Below are positions 53,279 through 64,000 of a stretch of 64,000 nucleotides of DNA, piece after piece. The notes beneath the pieces were generated by a model, which had not been told where the DNA came from, did no database searches, and worked only from the letters and a program-made list of their open reading frames with translations. The stretch covers positions 186,001-250,000 of the forward strand of contig NZ_BJUA01000005.1 of the NCBI RefSeq assembly GCF_007989825.1, read 5' to 3'. A program made the position numbers and the translations under genes. The first letter of the stretch is position 1, and each line of letters opens with the position of its first letter. Origin of the DNA: Cellulomonas persica (GTDB lineage: Bacteria; Actinomycetota; Actinomycetes; Actinomycetales; Cellulomonadaceae).

Positions 53279-54784
53279 TCAGCCGCGGCTCTGCTGCTTG
53301 ATGCGGTTGGTGAGCTCGGTCACCTGGTTGTAGATCGAGCGACGCTCGGCCATGAGCTCACGGATCTTGCGGTTCGCGTGCATGACCGTGGTGTGGTCGC
53401 GACCGCCGAAGGCCTGCCCGATCTTCGGCAGCGACAGGTCGGTGAGCTCGCGACACAGGTACATCGCGATCTGCCGGGCCGTCACCAGGACACGTGAGCG
53501 CGACGAACCGCACAGGTCGTCGATCGTGAGACCGAAGTACGCCGCCGTCTGGCCGATGACCTGCGTCGAGGTGATCTCGGTCGTCTGGTCGTCGGTGATG
53601 AGGTCCTTCAGCACGATCTCCGCGAGCGAAAGGTCGACCTGCTGCCGGTTGAGGCTCGCGAACGCCGTGACCCGGATCAGCGCGCCCTCGAGCTCGCGGA
53701 TGTTCGTCGAGATCTTCGAGGCGATGTACTCCAGGACGTCCGGCGGCGCCTGCATGTTGTCGCCACCGGCCTTCTTGCGGAGGATCGCGATGCGCGTCTC
53801 GAGGTCCGGCGGCTGGACGTCCGTGATGAGCCCCCACTCGAAGCGCGAGCGCATCCGGTCCTCGAAGCCGTTGAGCTGCTTCGGGGGCAGGTCGGACGTG
53901 ATCACGACCTGCTTGTTCGCGTTGTGCAGGGTGTTGAACGTGTGGAAGAACTCCTCCATCGTCTGTTCCTTGCCCTGCAGGAACTGGATGTCGTCGATGA
54001 GGAGCACGTCGACCTCGCGGTAGCGCCGCTGGAACGCGCCTGCCTTGCCCTCGGAGATCGAGTTGATGAAGTCGTTGGTGAACTCCTCGGAGTTCACGTA
54101 GCGCACCCGCACGCTCGGGTAGAGGTTCTGCGCGTAGTGACCGATCGCGTGCAGCAGGTGGGTCTTGCCCAGCCCGGAGTCGCCGTAGATGAACAGCGGG
54201 TTGTAGGCCTTCGCGGGCGCCTCGGCCACGGCGACGGCCGCGGCGTGCGCGAACCGGTTCGACGAACCGATGACGAACGTCTCGAACAGGTAGTTCGGGT
54301 TGAGGCGAGCGGGCTCGGCCTGCTGCCGACGCGCGTTCGGCACGTGCTGGGTGCCGGGTCGCGGTGCGTCCGGCTCCGGCCGCCGCACCTCGGGCTCGTG
54401 GGCCGGGCGGGCGGGTTCGTCGTCGACCGGGGTGTGCACGTCGTCCGGGGGGACCGCCGGTGAGGGGGAGCTCCCGGGAGCGGTGGTCATCGCCCGCACC
54501 GCCGGCGGGGCGTCGTCGACGAGCTGGGGGTCGACCGTGATCGCGAACCGGCCCTCACGCCCGAGTGCGTCGTTCAGCGCCTCGGTGACCTCGGTGCGGA
54601 CCTTCGTCTCGAGGTACTCCTTGGTGTACTCGTTGCCCACAGCAAGGATCAGGGTGCCGTCGAGGAGGCCCAGCGGCTGCGCGAGCCGGACGAACGCGAG
54701 CTGCCGCTGCGTGATGTCGGGGCTGGACTCGAGCGAGTTCACGACGTGACCCCAGACTCGAGTGAGCTCTTCGTCCTGTGCCAC
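53279..54784 (-). CDS. dnaA: DnaA replication initiator
   Basis: This 501-residue AAA+ initiator opens oriC. Domain I (about residues 1-90) is followed by a disordered Pro-rich domain II. Domain III has Walker A GDSGLGKTHLLHAIG and Walker B VDVLLIDDIQFLQGKEQT. Domain IV has the DNA-binding signature FGGRDHTTVMHANRKI. The start GTG 54784 follows TAGGACGTG-type text with a weak ribosome binding site (AGGTAGGA). Confidence 0.98.
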   Translation of the reverse strand: MAQDEELTRVWGHVVNSLESSPDITQRQLAFVRLAQPLGLLDGTLILAVGNEYTKEYLETKVRTEVTEALNDALGREGRFAITVDPQLVDDAPPAVRAMTTAPGSSPSPAVPPDDVHTPVDDEPARPAHEPEVRRPEPDAPRPGTQHVPNARRQQAEPARLNPNYLFETFVIGSSNRFAHAAAVAVAEAPAKAYNPLFIYGDSGLGKTHLLHAIGHYAQNLYPSVRVRYVNSEEFTNDFINSISEGKAGAFQRRYREVDVLLIDDIQFLQGKEQTMEEFFHTFNTLHNANKQVVITSDLPPKQLNGFEDRMRSRFEWGLITDVQPPDLETRIAILRKKAGGDNMQAPPDVLEYIASKISTNIRELEGALIRVTAFASLNRQQVDLSLAEIVLKDLITDDQTTEITSTQVIGQTAAYFGLTIDDLCGSSRSRVLVTARQIAMYLCRELTDLSLPKIGQAFGGRDHTTVMHANRKIRELMAERRSIYNQVTELTNRIKQQSRG

Positions 54785-55344
54785 GTCCTACCTCGGGTCG
54801 TCTCGTCCGTTCGACGTGCGAGTCTCGCACGGTGCGCCGTCGTCCACACACTTGTCCACACCTGTGAGCCGAGCCAGGCGACCGACGCGCGGCCGCACGG
54901 ATGCCCATCGCGACGCGCCTCGTCGTCGAGTCGCGCCGGCAGCACCACGCGGACGGCGTGCGTCGTCATCCACAGGCGACGACGAGCCTCGATGCTAGTG
55001 TCCACAGGCGCCGGCCGGGCACCGCCTGATGGGGTGATGAACGGCTCACCGACGGCGTGACCGCCCACGCTGCGGGGCTCTGACCTGGGGTGCGAGCCCG
55101 GACGCGTCGGGAGGCGCGAGAACCGCGATCTGATGCGGCTCGCGCAGGCCGCCTGACGTGCCCGGTCACATTTGACCGGCTAGACGCGCGCGGCGTATCG
55201 TCGTGCAGCCCTTTGATGGCTCCTGTCGGCGCGCCCAGACGCCGCACGCACCTCCAGGTGCGTGTCCTCGGAGCAGTCGAGCCAGGCAGAAGACCAGGAC
55301 GCGTGTGCCGCGCGCCCATCCGATGGACCAGTGGGAGAACTCTC
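54785..55344. promoter_or_regulatory. dnaA-rpmH divergent region with a second DnaA-box cluster
   Basis: This 560-base gap carries the promoters of dnaA and rpmH. It has one exact actinobacterial DnaA box TTGTCCACA (54852-54860). One-mismatch boxes are at 54840-54848 (TCGTCCACA), 54966-54974 (TCATCCACA) and 54998-55006 (GTGTCCACA). They probably autoregulate dnaA or form part of a bipartite origin. Nothing else is seen in the rpmH-proximal half. Confidence 0.7.
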
Positions 55345-57388: not shown

Positions 57389-57889
57389 ATGACCACCCAG
57401 CCTGACGCTGCGAGCTCGACGAGCCGACTCGAAGAGGAAGGCGAGATCGCGGCCGACTACCTCGAGGAGCTCCTCGACATCGCCGATCTCGACGGTGACA
57501 TCGACATCGACGTCGATCACGGTCGCGCCGCCGTCGAGATCGTCTCGGAGGACGCCGCCGACCGCTCGCTGCGTCGACTCGCCGGCCGCGACGGTGAGGT
57601 CCTGGACGCCCTGCAGGAGCTCACCCGCCTCGCCGTGCAGGCCAAGACGGGGGAGCGCAGCCGACTGATGCTCGACATCGCCGGCTACCGCGCGGCTCGC
57701 CGAGAGGCGCTGACGGCCGTCGCGAACGACGCCGTCGCGCGCGCGAAGGAGTCCGGCTCGCCGGTCTCCCTCGAGCCGATGAACCCGTTCGAGCGCAAGG
57801 TCATCCACGACGCCGTGGCCGCCGCCGGTCTCGTGAGCGACTCCGAGGGCGTCGAGCCGCACCGCTACGTGGTGGTGCGTCCGGCCTGA
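57389..57889 (+). CDS. khpB: Jag/KhpB RNA-binding protein (KH-like and R3H)
   Basis: This 166-residue protein has an acidic N-terminus and a KH-like domain (about residues 20-105, including GRDGEVLDALQELTRLAVQ). The R3H domain is at the C-terminus (about 110-166, with PMNPFERKVIHDAVAA and SEGVEPHRYVVVRP). It probably binds RNA and helps coordinate cell-wall growth. It ends the yidC operon. A strong terminator follows, and rsmG does not come next as it usually does. Confidence 0.95.
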   Translation: MTTQPDAASSTSRLEEEGEIAADYLEELLDIADLDGDIDIDVDHGRAAVEIVSEDAADRSLRRLAGRDGEVLDALQELTRLAVQAKTGERSRLMLDIAGYRAARREALTAVANDAVARAKESGSPVSLEPMNPFERKVIHDAVAAAGLVSDSEGVEPHRYVVVRPA

Positions 57890-57904
57890 CACCCGTCACA
57901 CAGT

Positions 57905-57946
57905 CGGCAAAGGGTGGCGCTCCGCACGGGGCGCCACCCTTTGCCG
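57905..57946 (+). terminator. operon terminator after jag/khpB
   Basis: CGGCAAAGGGTGGCGC (57905-57920) pairs perfectly over 16 bp with 57931-57946 across a 10-base loop. It lies 15 bases after the stop. It closes the rpmH-jag operon before the gene-poor region. Confidence 0.9.
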
Positions 57947-58160
57947 TACTAGCGGGCGCCGTGATGGCGACGCAGCTGGCCTGCGGCGGGCGGTCGAGCT
58001 GGCTGACGAGGATGTCCACGGCTGGCCCGACGTGCCCCCGCTACTACCACCTCCACATCCACAGAGCCGCCAGGCGTGGACGGCAGGGCCAGGTTCTCTT
58101 CTGGCGGAGTCGGCGCCGTGGGTTGGAGGCCCATGTGGTGTGGCGTCCAGTCGGTCGCTG

Positions 58161-58176
58161 CGTTTCACGTGAAACG
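58161..58176. promoter_or_regulatory. parS site 1 (exact core)
   Basis: The core GTTTCACGTGAAAC (58162-58175) is an exact match to the bacterial parS palindrome. The outer bases are C and G instead of T and A. Confidence 0.9.
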
Positions 58177-58314
58177 GGCGGCCCTTCGCCGCAGTCGGAT
58201 ACCCGTCCGCGCCGGGACGGTTCGCGGTAGGACGCCGATTCCTGGTGGTCCGCAGCCGAGCTCGCTCGTGGAACAGAGCTTGACGTGTCATCGGCCTCCC
58301 CACGGGATCACTGG

Positions 58315-58330
58315 TGTTTCACGTGGAACA
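58315..58330. promoter_or_regulatory. parS site 2 (one mismatch)
   Basis: TGTTTCACGTGGAACA carries both outer bases of the 16-mer consensus. The only change is A to G at core position 11. Confidence 0.85.
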
Positions 58331-59404
58331 TCGGGCTCGGACGTCGGGGTCCGGCTTGGTGCGACCGCGCCTGGCCGGTGAGGCTGCGCACTTGACGGAC
58401 AGGATGGCCCGCTGCGCCGCGTACCTGGTGACCCGTGCGCTGCGACTGGTCCCTGGCGCGCCAGCACACGCGGCATGAGGGCGGGTCGCGGCTGCCTCAG
58501 CGCGCGGCACCGTTCTCTGCTAGGTCGGGGTCCTGCCCGTGTCGGCACGGCGCGGCGCCCCAGATCAGCCATTCGGACGCCCGGAGGTCCCCAGAACCGG
58601 AGCGGAACAGTCTTCCGCCCTCAGCTCTCCACGCGGCTTGGCGTCCCGGCACAAGCCCTGTGCCCTGTGCAGAACGGGCACATGGCAGGCCTGTCAGTAG
58701 CGAGAGGGCTGTGCTGGTCGCCTGCATACCCGCGCCAGCTCGTCGTTGTGCGCTGGAGTAGGTGGCGGAGGTGGGACCTTCGACGCTGGGAGAGCTCTCG
58801 GGAGCGCCCGGGTCCGGCGTCCGCATCAGATGGTTGGCACGTGAGACCCGTCCCCTCCGGCACCTGCCTGTGTGGCCACGCTCGGACCTCGGTATGCGTC
58901 GAGAGCCTGAGTGATCCGCACGGCGCCGACGTGCCTCGCCGCTGGCTACATGCCCGGACGTTGTCTGTCCGCGCGACGCGACCCGTCCAGGCGGGACGGC
59001 GGCATCGAACGAACGGCCATCGTCGATTCACGCCTGTCGCGCCCGGTGACGTGCTCACGCGGAGCGAGAGTCGGCCGCTCCCGCGTGTGCCTGACGTCGA
59101 CGTCGGAGCGGAGCGGATGCCTGAGGTGGCGACTAGCGCTGGGCCGACGGCTCTACCTCGTCCCACTTCGCCGCGGCACGTCCGGTGGGTTGAACGGTGG
59201 AACTCGCTCCGCGCTTGTGCGAAGGGCGCCGCACGAGGTGAAGCTCATCGACTCCACGGGTCGGACAACGACGACGGGCCGGCGCTCAGCCTTGCCGCGG
59301 CGCGATGCCGTCCGGTCCGTGCCGTCGACGCCTCGGGCGTCGGGGGTTCCGGTATGTCCTGCTGGATGCCGCCCACCGACCTGCGCACGGAACCGGCCTG
59401 GGCG

Positions 59405-59503
59405 AGTCGCGCTCCGAAAGAACTGCTGGTGTGGGGGAGTCGCGCTCCGCAAATGGGGCTGGTGTGGGGGACCCGCGCTCTGCCCGAGGGTCCGGTCTGG
59501 CGT
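59405..59503. repeat. 33-bp tandem repeat, three imperfect copies
   Basis: Units start at 59405, 59438 and 59471. They share CGCGCTC near the start and the end text GGTGTGGGGG in the first two. Copies 1 and 2 are close and copy 3 is degraded. The unit length is a multiple of three, but no convincing gene contains it. Confidence 0.7.
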
Positions 59504-60059
59504 GGTCGGGCTCGGCACCCGAGGCAGGCCCGGCGCTTGGCGCTCTATCGCCTCGGTATCCCTAGCCGGGTCTGGTTCTCGAGGAGGAACGACGAGATAA
59601 GTCGCCGGAGCACTGCCGCCGCGCTGCACTCGACGTGCGACGAGTAGCAGTAAGGCGATGAAGCCCCCTGTCGATGGAGTTGCCGGTGGGACTCTCGCGG
59701 GTACCTGGCGCTCCCTGAGGCCCCGCCAGATTGCCGCACCGTCTGCAGTCGTTCCTGCACAGCCAGCGCGGCGTGGCTGCTCAGCGGATCAAGGTGTCGG
59801 CACGAGATGGCTCGGGCGGGTTCCCGAGGCCGGCTCAGCCGATGCGTTCACGACGCGACTGAACGGGCAACGCGGTCGGCGACGAGCTGAGCGACTCCGT
59901 TACCCGGGTTGTGCTGGTGATTGACAGTGAGTTACCGGCTCGCTGGAGACCGGCAGCAGCGCGCGCACCGAGCAGCGGGAGGCCGAAGCGCATTGAGGAG
60001 GTATCGGCCGACCTCAGCTAGCGCGGGCGGGTCGAGGCGCGGGAGGGCCTTGCGGCCTC

Positions 60060-60135
60060 CGTTTCACGTGAAACGACCCCTGCAGTCTCCGTTTCACGAG
60101 AGACGTCCTCTGCAGTCGCCGTTCTACGTGAGACG
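60060..60135. repeat. parS sites 3-5 in a 30-bp tandem repeat
   Basis: Three parS-like palindromes start at 60060, 60090 and 60120. The first core is exact (GTTTCACGTGAAAC). The second has two mismatches (GTTTCACGAGAGAC). The third has three (GTTCTACGTGAGAC). The spacers also match, with CTGCAGTC followed by TCC or GCC. The unit was evidently duplicated in tandem and then drifted. Confidence 0.85.
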
Positions 60136-60185
60136 GGGGAGGGGCGGCACTCTGGACTGGCGCATGGTTCGACTAGGCCGTGTTG

Positions 60186-60593
60186 CTAGAGGTTGGTGGG
60201 GAAGAGTCGGATGTCCGTCGCTGGAATGGCGACTCGTGCTCCGAGCAGACCGTCGGGTTGCGGACCGACCATTTCGAGGAGTGTGGTCGTGGGTCCCGCG
60301 CGCAGTACAGCCACGCCGTCGCGCTGTACCCGTTCGATGACGCCGTGCAGCGATCCCGGAGGCTGTTCTCCAGCAGCGATTCCGATGACGACGTCCGTCC
60401 AGCGGCAGGGCGCGCAGTCGATCTCGACGTCGACGACGTCGCCGACCGCAGGCACGGGGCCTTGCCAGGTTGCGGCGAACCGGCCGACGGGCGAGTCGAC
60501 GACTACGGTCTGCGACGAACCGGCATCGACACACCGCATCTCGATCCGCGTACTCCGTCCCTCGTGCTGAAGTCTCCACCAAGTGTGCTTCAC
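60186..60593 (-). CDS. orphan ORF (135 aa), unknown
   Basis: This is the only open frame in the island with protein-like composition, with alternating hydrophobic and polar beta-type text (VDSPVGRFAATWQGPVPAVG, VVDVEIDCAPCRWTDVVIGI). Codon use is native-like but less strict than in neighbours (GTA, CTT, ACT, GGA are used). The GTG at 60593 lacks a ribosome binding site; an ATG at 60539 is an alternative start. No family is recognised. It may be a transferred gene or a remnant. It lies between parS site 5 and the transposase fragment. Confidence 0.5.
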   Translation of the reverse strand: MKHTWWRLQHEGRSTRIEMRCVDAGSSQTVVVDSPVGRFAATWQGPVPAVGDVVDVEIDCAPCRWTDVVIGIAAGEQPPGSLHGVIERVQRDGVAVLRAGPTTTLLEMVGPQPDGLLGARVAIPATDIRLFPTNL

Positions 60594-60638
60594 GGGGGTG
60601 CCCAGATCGGGCCGGCGACACGCTGGACCAGGTAAAGG

Positions 60639-60830
60639 TCACCGACTGATGCTCTGCACCCAGTGGAGGGTCGCAGAAGGGCATTGGCCGGAGTGGTGGC
60701 TGCGGGCGGTCTTGTCTGACCGCATCGCGAGCCCGCGCCACCGCTTGAGCTTGTTGAAGCAGCGCTCGACGACATCGCGGCTCCGGTACCGCTGCCGCCG
60801 TTCGTCGCCGAAGTCGATCGGCCGCCCGGG
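60639..60830 (-). pseudogene. IS5-family (IS427-like) transposase C-terminal remnant
   Basis: Minus-strand translation gives RYRSRDVVERCFNKLKRWRG followed by LAMRSDKTARS and ATLHWV. This is the conserved end of IS5/IS427 transposases, including the DDE-domain final Glu in VVERCFNKLK. The Glu and flanks are intact. The upstream part is missing or scrambled, and no inverted repeats or target duplication were identified. Confidence 0.75.
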
Positions 60831-60859
60831 ACGTTTCCGGCGGCTTCGGCGGGCGGCGT

Positions 60860-60875
60860 CGTTCCACGTGAAACA
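60860..60875. promoter_or_regulatory. parS site 6 (one mismatch)
   Basis: The core GTTCCACGTGAAAC (60861-60874) has T to C at position 4, the mirror image of the change in site 2. It sits just beyond the transposase remnant. Confidence 0.85.
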
Positions 60876-61368
60876 TGGCGGCCTGAGGCCTGAGACGCAC
60901 GGCCTTGGCGGCCGTGTCTGGATCGTCACGGCACGCCCCCGGCCGATGGCACCAGTGGCGCTTGATCCAGCGCGGCGTGCTGGGGCGTGCAGGTGCTGGC
61001 GAGGCACCGGACACTTCGAGGCGTACCCGTCGGGGACCGGGATTCGCGCGGAGGGAGCTCGCGTCGGAGCGCGCCGGATGCGCAGCGGCTTCCGACCTGG
61101 CTGCTGGACGCCGCCCGTGACAGGTGGATCGACAACGCGGTGGGAAGCCGGTGACCGAGGGCGTACAGTCGGCGTGGGGCGTGGCGGCGTGGCTCGCCGC
61201 GAGGCTGGCGGAGGAGAGCTGCTCGTCCTGGGAGTCTCATCGCGCTCGACGCAGGCGCGGGCACTCCACCCGACGTGCCCTCCAAGCCCGGCGGAGCGCT
61301 GCGGTCCCTCGGGACGTCGCAGGGGACGCGACAAAGACCGAGTCTCAACCGCCGGCCGCCGGGGTCTG

Positions 61369-61384
61369 TGTTCCACGTGAAACA
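61369..61384. promoter_or_regulatory. parS site 7 (one mismatch)
   Basis: TGTTCCACGTGAAACA has the full 16-mer outer bases with T to C at core position 4. Confidence 0.85.
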
Positions 61385-61582
61385 CCGCTCCACACACCGA
61401 CGCCCGTGTGCAACGCCGGGGAATCCGACTATGGCTCGGTCTGGGCCGCGACGCCGTGAGTGGCGCCAGCGTCTCGAGCGCACGGGCGGCGCGGCGTGCC
61501 GACAGCGGCTCCGCGCACGCCACGGAGCACGACGCCACGGTCGGGTGCTGCTGCGGGTCGGTGAGCCGTGGCAGGTCGACCG

Positions 61583-61598
61583 TGTCTCATGTGGAACC
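61583..61598. promoter_or_regulatory. parS-like site 8 (three mismatches)
   Basis: The core GTCTCATGTGGAAC (61584-61597) differs at positions 3, 7 and 11 and has lost the central CACGTG. It is probably a degraded copy and a weak ParB site at most. Confidence 0.45.
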
Positions 61599-61923
61599 GC
61601 CTGCCCGACGCTCACGAGAACCAGAGGCGCGGAGCGATCTCAGCACCGCTGGTGTGCCCAAGTAGAGGGGGAGGGCTCGGATGTGGATCGGAGTCGGACG
61701 GGAGCGCAGACGCCCCGAGCATGTGGGCTCGGCTAGGCGTGGCTACCTCTGCATCGCGGCACCCGGTGAAGCGGGTCTTTTCGAGGAGCGCGAGTGACGA
61801 CGCACCGGTCGGTCCGCCCGAGGCGTCCGGTCATGCCAGACGTGGACAGAGACCGCCATCCGCCTGGCGGGGGAGCCGGTCGTGCGGGCCGCCTGCGACG
61901 TCATTCGAGAGACGCCGAGCTCG

Positions 61924-61939
61924 TCTTTCACGTGGAACG
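61924..61939. promoter_or_regulatory. parS-like site 9 (two mismatches)
   Basis: The core CTTTCACGTGGAAC (61925-61938) keeps TTTCACGTG and changes positions 1 and 11. Confidence 0.65.
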
Positions 61940-62129
61940 GGCGCGTCGAGACCCGTGCCTCCAACAGTGCACCCGACGGAAGTGACTCCGGCCGTTCAAC
62001 CTCTGCCGCTGTCCGCTATCCGTGCGGGGGCCGGCCAGCGCTAACCACGAGCACGACCCGCTGTGCCCTCTGGTGCACCGCGGGAGCACACGAAAGGAAG
62101 CGGCGTGCCGGGGGATGAGGCAGCTGTGG

Positions 62130-62250
62130 GCAGGGCTCTCAGGACGGGGAGCGCCCGAGAGCAGGGCCCTGAGGACCGGGAGCGCCCGAGGACCGTGAGG
62201 ACGGGGAGTACCCGAGGGCAGGGCTGCGGGTCAGGGAACACCCTCCCGAC
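62130..62250. repeat. 31-bp imperfect tandem repeat
   Basis: Units of 31 bp start at 62130 and 62161, sharing GGGAGCGCCCGAG. Shorter degraded copies follow from about 62192 and 62218. No gene contains them convincingly. They sit between parS-like sites 9 and 10. Confidence 0.6.
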
Positions 62251-63228
62251 ACCGGAGTCAGGCAGCGGAGGGTGCGAGCGGATCCAACGGCCGGACAAGT
62301 TGTGGGGCGCGTTGTGGGGCGCGGAAACCGAAAGTGGAGCGGCGGAGGGGGCACGAGAGGGTGCACGGTTGCAGACCCAGACAGAGGTGGCGCAGTCTCG
62401 CCGGGCGGGTCCGCAGCCGCAGACAGCGGCTGGTTGCGGCGGTGGGTCACGGCCGGTCGTGAAGGGCTGTCGGCGCGCCAGCGTTGGCCGGGAAGCCGTG
62501 GCCGTGGTGGTCGCGGGAGTGGGTGGCAGGGCGACGCCGACATGTGAGCCCGGGGCCTCGCGGCGGCGTGAGTGGGTGGCGTGCTGACGGGGCTGCGAAC
62601 ACGGGAGCCATAGCCTGGATGGAGATCGTCCGAGGCCGGGCGCTCGTAGGCCGGGGCGCTGAGGCGTCCTGAAATCAGGTCAGCCCAGGGTGTGGGGTCC
62701 GCGGAGGGTCGTGGCGGAGTTGGGGCGGACCGCGGTGCTGGGGCGTCGGCTTGGGGAGAGGTCGCGGCACCGGGGGCGGCTAATTGCGGTGTGCGGGCGC
62801 GGGCTCGCGGAGTCGTGGCCGGGCGGGTGAGGAGGTGGTCGGCATCCGGGCGGGGTTGCGAACCAGCGACCGAGGGCGGCGCTGATCATGGTCGGCGCGC
62901 AGCGGACAGCATCGTCGGCGCGGTCCAGCATGCGGGCGGAAAGTACCGGGGGCGCGGCCGTGCCGTGCGTCGGGAGAAAGGCCGAGCCGCGCACGCTGTG
63001 CGGTGAGTCGACGACCGCGCACGCACCTGTGCATGGCTGGTCAGGGCGTAGCCGGACGGGTCGGAGGTGGTCGGGCGCGATGCGCAGACGGGGGCCGCCG
63101 TGCGCCGACGGCACGGGGATGAAACTCGGGGTCGACGAGCTGTGGGTGAAGCGCCGGGAGCGGGTGATGAGCCGGTACGGTGGGACGTCCGCGCAGCCAG
63201 GAGGCCGCAGCAGGCGATCGGTAGCGGA

Positions 63229-63244
63229 GGTTGCACGTGGAACG
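63229..63244. promoter_or_regulatory. parS-like site 10, upstream of rsmG
   Basis: The core GTTGCACGTGGAAC (63230-63243) has changes at positions 4 and 11 and keeps CACGTG. It ends 13 bases before the rsmG start, touching its ribosome binding site, so ParB binding could affect rsmG-parA expression. Confidence 0.65.
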
Positions 63245-63256
63245 GAGAGTGGCGTC

Positions 63257-63928
63257 GTGAGCGAGAACGGCGACCTCACCGACGTTCACGACCCGCTCGA
63301 CGGCGACGCGCGGCTCCCCGAGTTCTTCGGAGCAGCGTGGCCCCAGGTCGAGGGTTTCCACCGGATGCTCGTCGATCAGGGCGTCCTGCGTGGCCTGATC
63401 GGGCCGCGCGAGGTCGCGCGCCTGTGGGAGCGGCACCTGCTCAACTCCGCGGCGGCCGTGCCCTTCCTGCCCACGAGCGGGCTGATCGTCGACCTCGGGA
63501 GCGGCGCCGGACTTCCGGGCGTCGTCGTCGCCGCGATGGTGCCTGACGCGCAGGTCGTGCTGCTCGAGCCGATGGAGCGACGCACCGACTGGCTCTCCGA
63601 GGTCGTCGACGAGCTCGGCTTGCCGAACGCGCAGGTCAGGCGCGCGCGAGCGCAGGAGGCGCTCGACCTCCAGGCGGACGTGGTCACCACCCGAGCGGTC
63701 GCGGCGCTCGACAAGCTCTACGCGTGGGCGATGCCGCTGATCCGTCCGGGAGGCACGCTCGTAGCGCTCAAGGGCGCTCGGGCGCAGGAGGAGATCGACA
63801 AGGGGCGCAGCGCCGCACGCCGCGCTCACGTGGGAGCGGTCGAGGTGCGCGAGGTGTCGACGCTTGAGGGTGTCGAGCCGACGCGCGTCGTGATCGCCGT
63901 GCACGAGGGGGGCAAGCGTGTTCGGTAG
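63257..63928 (+). CDS. rsmG: RsmG 16S rRNA (guanine-N7) methyltransferase
   Basis: This 223-residue enzyme methylates G527 of 16S rRNA using S-adenosylmethionine. The SAM motif is LIVDLGSGAGLPGVVVA. Family texts include GPREVARLWERHLLNSAA and VTTRAVAALDKLYAWAMPLI. I chose GTG 63257 because GGAGAG lies 7 bases upstream; the open frame extends far upstream into non-coding island DNA. The stop overlaps the next gene start. Confidence 0.95.
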   Translation: MSENGDLTDVHDPLDGDARLPEFFGAAWPQVEGFHRMLVDQGVLRGLIGPREVARLWERHLLNSAAAVPFLPTSGLIVDLGSGAGLPGVVVAAMVPDAQVVLLEPMERRTDWLSEVVDELGLPNAQVRRARAQEALDLQADVVTTRAVAALDKLYAWAMPLIRPGGTLVALKGARAQEEIDKGRSAARRAHVGAVEVREVSTLEGVEPTRVVIAVHEGGKRVR

Positions 63929-64000
63929 GCGCAAGCAAGGTCGTGCACCGCAGCCCGTGCCGGCGACCGCGGCGTGGCCGCTGCCCGCTGAGACCTCGGC
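63918..64000 (+). CDS. start of a gene at the parA position (partial)
   Basis: A GTG at 63918 overlaps the end of rsmG and opens a frame to the window edge (VFGRRKQGRAPQPVPATAAW...). Gene order (jag, rsmG, then parA-parB) makes this the N-terminal extension of ParA likely. No ParA motif is reached, so identity rests on context alone. Confidence 0.5.
   Translation, partial: MFGRRKQGRAPQPVPATAAWPLPAETS

Follow-up and report, generated by a model that had tools for sequence, protein, structure and literature searches.

What is the 5,367-bp gap between jag and rsmG, close to the replication origin of Cellulomonas persica? It lies in a 64-kb stretch of this genome, which was analysed at its full length and is called the window below, and it carries a cluster of sites resembling parS, the loading site of ParB in the ParABS chromosome partition system. 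To our knowledge, why chromosomes carry many parS sites and how ParB spreading coexists with transcription are still open questions. We consider it likely, judging from sequence comparison, that this island is the Cellulomonas chromosomal centromere, i.e. a parS cluster in the jag–rsmG gap that serves an ordinary ParABS system within an insulated spacer of nearly free sequence.

parS sites in the window and in the genome

The window was scanned for the palindrome GTTTCACGTGAAAC with up to three mismatches; the parS words at issue are GTTTCACGTGAAAC, GTTCCACGTGAAAC, GTTCCACGTGGAAC and GTTTCCCGTGAAAC. An earlier reading of this DNA from its letters (the sequence-only reading) had listed ten parS-like sites between jag and rsmG, and the scan returned exactly these ten, every one inside the island (58162–63243), while 100 dinucleotide shuffles gave a mean of 0.94 matches and a maximum of 4. 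As that reading had also described, the CACG centre is retained in eight of the ten sites; positions 4 or 11 hold 8 of the 15 mismatches by our count. The island and its sites are as follows.

57890..63256, no strand, jag–rsmG gap forming the parS island, 5,367 bp
58162..58175, plus strand, exact parS
58316..58329, plus strand, parS with one mismatch (position 11)
60057..60135, plus strand, 30-bp tandem repeat in 2.6 copies, bearing the parS at 60061, 60091 and 60121
60061..60074, plus strand, exact parS in the first copy of the 30-bp repeat
60091..60104, plus strand, parS-like site with two mismatches in the second copy of the repeat
60121..60134, plus strand, parS-like site with three mismatches in the third copy of the repeat, probably inactive
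60861..60874, plus strand, parS with one mismatch (position 4)
61370..61383, plus strand, parS with one mismatch (position 4)
61584..61597, plus strand, parS-like site with three mismatches, at the end of a stretch 65% identical to Cellulomonas gelida
61925..61938, plus strand, parS-like site with two mismatches
63230..63243, plus strand, leader parS with two mismatches, 13 bp 5' of the rsmG start codon

Across the whole 3.66-Mb assembly, seven sites match with at most one mismatch, and the island holds five of them. With up to two mismatches there are 12 sites, eight of them in the island, and the reversed control pattern gives one. With up to three the count rises to 27, ten of them in the island, and the reversed control gives nine, so the three-mismatch class elsewhere is near background. 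Two such sites within 5 kb are above background, and the one at 60121 is a tandem copy. Site density in the island is far above that in the remaining genome, as the sequence-only reading expected of a genome-wide scan. One off-island site with at most one mismatch (contig position 250587) lies in the 5' part of parA, 1.3 kb past the rsmG start; another, with one mismatch, sits inside moaE on a different contig (C12:82132; Pfam MoaE, E = 3e-32).

All ten sites had been proposed to form a ParB loading platform. This stands as a prediction for the exact, one-mismatch and two-mismatch sites, whereas the two sites with three mismatches are probably not loaders, because degenerate sites with at least three mismatches recruited no ParB in Corynebacterium glutamicum (PMC7083940).

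By gene content, the locus is identified as an origin-proximal ParABS locus with parA and parB homologues nearby, in agreement with the sequence-only reading. The gene order runs dnaA (minus strand), rnpA, yidC, jag, the gap, rsmG, parA and parB, with the following genes in the window.

53279..54784, minus strand, dnaA, the origin marker (Pfam Bac_DnaA, E = 2.7e-74)
57389..57889, plus strand, jag (khpB), left border of the island (Pfam R3H, E = 1.4e-20)
63257..63928, plus strand, rsmG (gidB), right border of the island (Pfam GidB, E = 1.3e-42; start codon assigned by reading)
63918..64000, plus strand, start of parA, which runs past the window end (start codon assigned by reading)

In profile searches, the parA product carries the ParA ATPase domain AAA_31 (E = 4.8e-56) and the parB product the ParB_N, HTH_ParB and ParB_C domains. 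A single exact match to the DnaA box word lies at 54852. The single frame tried for rpmH gave no Pfam match, and rpmH is not claimed.

Retention of parS and turnover of the spacer among relatives

rsmG was located in 150 genomes of the family, and regions from 80 of the 149 others were analysed together with 80 added named loci, 161 loci in all. Eleven loci without jag upstream, at contig ends, were dropped (C. gelida and C. uda, each repeatedly, C. terrae, C. septica, C. algicola, BIN39, G130 and G143), leaving 150, or 145 after removal of identical rsmG. The 35 complete Cellulomonas loci include a record titled Cellulosimicrobium cellulans DE0111, whose RsmG similarity and parS words, rather than a tree, place it with C. 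hominis. C. gelida is the nearest named relative, its RsmG being 88% identical.

The gap measures at least 500 bp in 34 of the 35 Cellulomonas loci (median of the 35, 2,434 bp; maximum, 5,718 bp). These 34 long gaps hold three to nine parS each at up to two mismatches, 187 in total, compared with no match for the reversed pattern or for any of 12 random palindromes. In 21 genomes of the genus, 83 of the 165 degenerate parS found genome-wide fall in the gaps, which make up about 0.06% of the DNA (from rounded genome sizes); the reversed control gave 0. Outside Cellulomonas, the gap reaches 500 bp in 20 of 110 loci. Nineteen of these belong to the 56 loci that represent nine further genera of the family; the last is one of the 54 named outgroup loci, a Schumannella with 1,992 bp and four parS (in a second Schumannella the gap is 12 bp). 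A further 60 genomes from the order and class, drawn from 94 rows of which some share genomes, have a median gap of 14 bp; three reach at least 500 bp, one of them with parS. The block is characteristic of Cellulomonas, patchy in its near kin and not general. Several Cellulomonas assemblies break inside the gap (L108, L113, L127, L129, L130, L134 and others), suggesting that it is hard to assemble.

The sequence between the sites behaves differently from the sites themselves. Against C. gelida, beyond the last ~180 bp before rsmG, the significant local matches are one ~140-bp stretch at 65% identity, whose C. gelida counterpart ends at a two-mismatch site where the 61584 site stands here, and two weak matches out of order. 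Global identity of the gap is 46–56% over 18 species pairs whose rsmG is 82–90% identical, pairs below 82% having been left out; six pairs, which themselves span 46–56%, gave 44–49% when re-run with reversed or shuffled partners, the shuffles here and for the hairpins below keeping base composition only. In local alignments, the alignable share of the gap was 0.04–0.11 at 57–61% fourfold-site identity (four of 12 pairs, one of them with 0.07 against 0.08 for its reversed control), 0.08 and 0.30 at 66–68%, and 0.32–1.00 at 71–76%, the most similar pair being alignable along its entire gap at 60%. Values of 0.00 and 0.26 came from two pairs that are more distant. Among 1,711 gap pairs, other genera included, there were 12 interior matches at E 1e-6, from five pairs.

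Within the aligned stretches, 285 of 308 parS columns are identical (92.5%), compared with 5334 of 8363 other columns (63.8%), over 15 stretches from seven species pairs, some of them in both directions. In the cleanest pair, ACRRI and hominis, the whole gap aligns and parS columns are identical at 41/42 and 48/56, against 63%. These comparisons indicate that parS is kept by selection while the spacer turns over. The expectation that parS content is conserved when the rest of the gap is not was borne out across the genus, where parS content is kept though most of the spacer sequence is not. Turnover of the spacer beside retained sites is a clear example of selection acting on a bacterial centromere.

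Exact parS is missing from the gap of nine related loci, namely G067 (L032) and the C. hominis group and its kin (L036, L037, L038, L111, L112, L120, L126 and L131). All four gap sites of G067 read GTTTCCCGTGAAAC; in the other loci GTTCCACGTGGAAC or its half-form replaces exact parS, GTTCCACGTGGAAC making up 5/6 of the gap sites in DE0111, 4/6 in C. hominis, 3/6 in C. triticagri and fewer elsewhere. An altered ParB recognition helix was considered as the cause of these words and rejected for the helix core, SRPQISNTLRLL, which is identical in the 24 rows compared; the residue after it is K or R. A constant helix core beside variant words speaks for sites mismatched at positions 4 and 11 being functional, so that most one- and two-mismatch sites would count. 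The lineages without exact parS in the gap bear on the evolution of ParB specificity.

Borders and coding content of the block

The block is bordered by two candidate transcription signals.

57905..57946, plus strand, terminator-like hairpin directly 3' of jag (19 net pairs by our scorer)
63176..63181, plus strand, -10-like TACGGT, presumed promoter of rsmG-parA-parB

The fold of 57887–57970 has an energy of -57.2 kcal/mol (z -6.35). Each of the 34 long-gap Cellulomonas loci has a hairpin of 13–20 net pairs directly 3' of jag, which beats the best of 30 shuffles in 32 of them. The same holds for 14 of the 20 remaining long gaps and for 25 of the 91 short gaps (18 of 31 for short gaps of 90–500 bp; below 90 bp the hairpin window extends into rsmG). 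Elsewhere the hairpin stem is built around an exact parS palindrome, as seen in L031 (G144), L050 (G149), L071 (G124), L077 (G099), L103 (G004) and L176 (Schumannella); a parS-bearing hairpin of this kind could, as a single element, both end transcription and load ParB. At the other border, a -10-like word (TACGGT, TACCGT or TAGCGT, selected after inspecting the sequences) occurs within 200 bp before rsmG in 32 of the 34 loci, with 2.7 expected. What is conserved appears to be the sites, the hairpin and the ~150 bp 5' of rsmG, the spacer sequence being nearly free.

The sequence-only reading described the block as gene-free. For native genes no coding signal was found, the gap scoring as non-coding by codon usage in all six frames. 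rnpA just upstream likewise scores near zero, so the codon scan can miss short genes. Among 54 long gaps, no open reading frame (ORF) of at least 50 aa exceeded a log-odds of 9.8 (jag, 43.9; rsmG, 46.5) in a scan to which foreign genes of odd composition are invisible. In 464 kb sampled from the C. persica genome, the gap is the longest run without a gene call by our caller (4,998 bp), followed by one of 1,986 bp; the next-longest runs are GC-richer and may include genes missed by the caller. A reading of the gap as gene-rich was rejected, the native codon signal being absent here and in relatives. The description does not extend to foreign DNA, since a plasmid-derived ORF and an insertion sequence (IS) remnant are present.

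60173..60843, no strand, plasmid-like stretch, 84.5% identical to plasmid pTL2A of Cellulosimicrobium cellulans
60186..60593, minus strand, 135-aa hypothetical ORF in the plasmid-like stretch, with an annotated relative
60660..60843, minus strand, 3' remnant of an IS5-family transposase, similar to the plasmid IS5

The plasmid-like stretch stops 17 bp short of a parS. The 135-aa ORF has no Pfam or NCBIfam match; it is matched at E ≤ 0.01 in 14 of 81 Cellulomonas genomes, this one included, and four of the others among these 14 fall below E 1e-8 at 33–38% identity. The codon scan missed this ORF, and so does not see foreign genes whose composition is unusual. The IS5 remnant matches NF033580 (E = 4.6e-9) and PF13586 (E = 0.0024), both below the cut-off. 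No known RNA family reached gathering score between 53000 and 64000, and a phage origin, with 0 matches, was rejected.

Proposed mechanism and rival readings

In the centromere reading, ParB would load at the exact, one-mismatch and probably two-mismatch sites (about five to eight of the ten) and then slide a few kb along DNA almost free of genes, and the resulting partition complex would be moved by ParA. ParB loading, clamp sliding and pulling by ParA are established ParABS biology. By analogy with Streptomyces venezuelae, where ParB spreads 2.5–3 kb to each side (PMC12511625), a block of 0.5–5.7 kb would be in the range of ParB spreading. The jag terminator and the separate rsmG-parAB promoter would keep the block transcription-free, and the leader parS before rsmG may let ParB dampen rsmG-parAB.

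Several observations weigh against this reading. The spacer is partly alignable in five C. hominis-group pairs (share 0.30–1.00), BLAST may pair non-orthologous parS and thereby inflate their footprint, and in G067/G148 the trend is reversed, with 8/14 parS columns identical compared with 65% elsewhere. Most sampled genomes of the order and class are without the gap, so it is not needed for ParABS, and the partial loci of C. septica and C. algicola have the leader parS only, within the 3.4 and 1.9 kb upstream of rsmG. The hairpin in C. persica is without a T-tract and a consensus terminator scan calls none, so we infer termination there; a sigma-70 promoter scan likewise calls none here. One modelling paper infers that transcription leaves ParB sliding largely undisturbed (PMC10387095). 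Finally, jag and rsmG are 20 bp apart in G140. Adjacent jag and rsmG with parS elsewhere, the arrangement expected if the sequence-only reading were wrong, is common outside the genus, while inside Cellulomonas it occurs in G140 alone. This genome has a 2.9-kb gene-call-free stretch with four parS behind an M24-peptidase gene (L041 12570–15434), which ends at the first part of a Mutator-family transposase; its parA and parB lie near the end of another contig (L269), which also bears three parS-like sites and the final portion of a same-family transposase. The G140 block seems to have moved rather than vanished, the order being left open by the assembly, and a block moved but not lost fits a functional unit.

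The best surviving alternative, to which we give somewhat less than an even chance and which is compatible with the centromere reading, is that only parS is selected: the terminator and promoter made insertions and duplications between them costless, the gap grew, and its length has no role. The plasmid-like stretch with its IS5 remnant and the Mutator-family transposase fragments that border the displaced G140 island agree with such growth, as do tandem repeats, which cover 7.3% of the gaps compared with 2.0% of the mostly coding flanks, and the range of gap lengths, 0.5 to 5.7 kb among 34 loci. Useless DNA, however, tends to be deleted from bacterial genomes, and 34 of 35 complete loci keep at least 500 bp. 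Moreover, longer gaps hold more parS (Spearman 0.72, n = 34, kinship uncorrected), and in one group four of seven loci measure 4,609–4,767 bp despite scrambled sequence (the other three, 2,434–4,036 bp).

A tentative extension of the centromere reading, less likely than not, is that block length is itself selected, the block being a nearly sequence-free, transcription-free track, a few kb long, on which ParB clamps would slide and which runs from terminator to promoter; its sequence would turn over at a near-unconstrained rate while parS is retained or re-formed. If so, it would be a bacterial analogue of the regional centromere, with its own 'centromere paradox'; it would have originated in the Cellulomonas lineage and kin, and independently in Schumannella. 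Dozens of natural Cellulomonas variants differ in the number and word of the sites and in the length and sequence of the spacer while the flanking genes are mostly fixed, and sister lineages are without the block. With them, the role of spacer length and of insulation in a centromere can be put to the test.

It is improbable that the cluster mainly serves gene control, with ParB at the leader parS repressing rsmG-parAB and the remaining copies titrating ParB. The last parS of the gap does begin 20–45 bp before rsmG in 20 of the 34 loci (5 bp in one), and one gidB promoter of Mycobacterium bovis BCG has a putative parS overlapping its -10 (PMC2346475). Yet one or two sites would suffice for this role, compared with the three to nine present, and in 13 of the 34 loci the last site lies at least 160 bp from rsmG.

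Still less probable is a satellite-like array built by local tandem duplication, as the sequence-only reading had offered for the cluster. The 30-bp repeat bears three parS-like sites, and arrays with at least two parS occur in 4 of 34 gaps, including that of G144, with units of ~110–155 bp. Against this, 12 of the 187 parS lie in tandem repeats where 14.3 are expected, and parS spacing looks random (mean percentile 0.42, 32 loci). Local duplication accounts for the trio at 60061, 60091 and 60121 only, the 34 gaps showing no parS enrichment in repeats. Regular head-to-tail centromere units were also rejected, with one 2.6-copy repeat here and random spacing genus-wide. That the gap is a graveyard of decaying foreign DNA with parS-like words by chance or descent is the least probable reading: the plasmid and IS debris at 60173–60843 and the rapid spacer turnover would suit it, but parS is retained where the spacer is lost, the 187 sites stand against 0 per control pattern, and the gaps carry little codon signal in a scan blind to foreign genes of odd composition.

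Clustered sites in non-coding DNA beside par genes are found in F plasmid sopC and plasmid parC as regular tandem units, whereas spacing in Cellulomonas is irregular and the spacers are mostly non-repeat. Eukaryotic regional centromeres keep their function through turnover of DNA sequence; the analogy goes no further, as the Cellulomonas sites are sequence-specific and kept, and no epigenetic definition is implied. In Streptomyces, parS sites are dispersed over hundreds of kb among genes. Streptomyces resembles Cellulomonas in having many parS near oriC (21 in S. coelicolor, PMC7022226; 16–17 in S. venezuelae, PMC12511625) and differs in that a single island is not mentioned in the available parts of these reports. 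The sequence-only reading held such a block to be unusual since parS are spread through genes in most genomes, which was over-general: in C. glutamicum nine of ten parS are intergenic (PMC7083940). That species also has its ten parS in one origin-proximal cluster, for which ParB loading and chromosome folding have been demonstrated, and one parS can suffice (PMC7083940). Its cluster, however, extends over 35 kb, lies 73 kb from oriC and consists of identical sites (PMC7083940), whereas C. persica has eight sites with up to two mismatches, of variant words, in one 5-kb gap ~3–9 kb from dnaA. Among the papers listed by a literature search with most subscription papers beyond reach, none deals, by title and abstract, with a Cellulomonas parS island, which does not establish absence from print.

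Mycobacterium shares the jag-gidB-parA-parB order, and M. bovis BCG has one putative parS before gidB and one inside parA; it differs in that intergenic regions are short or missing and putative parS number two (PMC2346475). Three parS are tabulated for M. smegmatis (PMC7022226). In Cellulomonas relatives, the parA frame is open for ~270–520 codons before its conserved part and reads as a low-complexity protein, e.g. in L039 (G020), L042 (G040) and L035 (G054). Nine of 33 loci, those of the C. hominis group and its kin, do not have this 5' open frame; where present, it bears one to six parS. Genus-wide, 58 of the 66 parS inside the parA frame are in the frame reading V-S-R-E-T, and the parA of G020 carries five parS spaced 54 bp.

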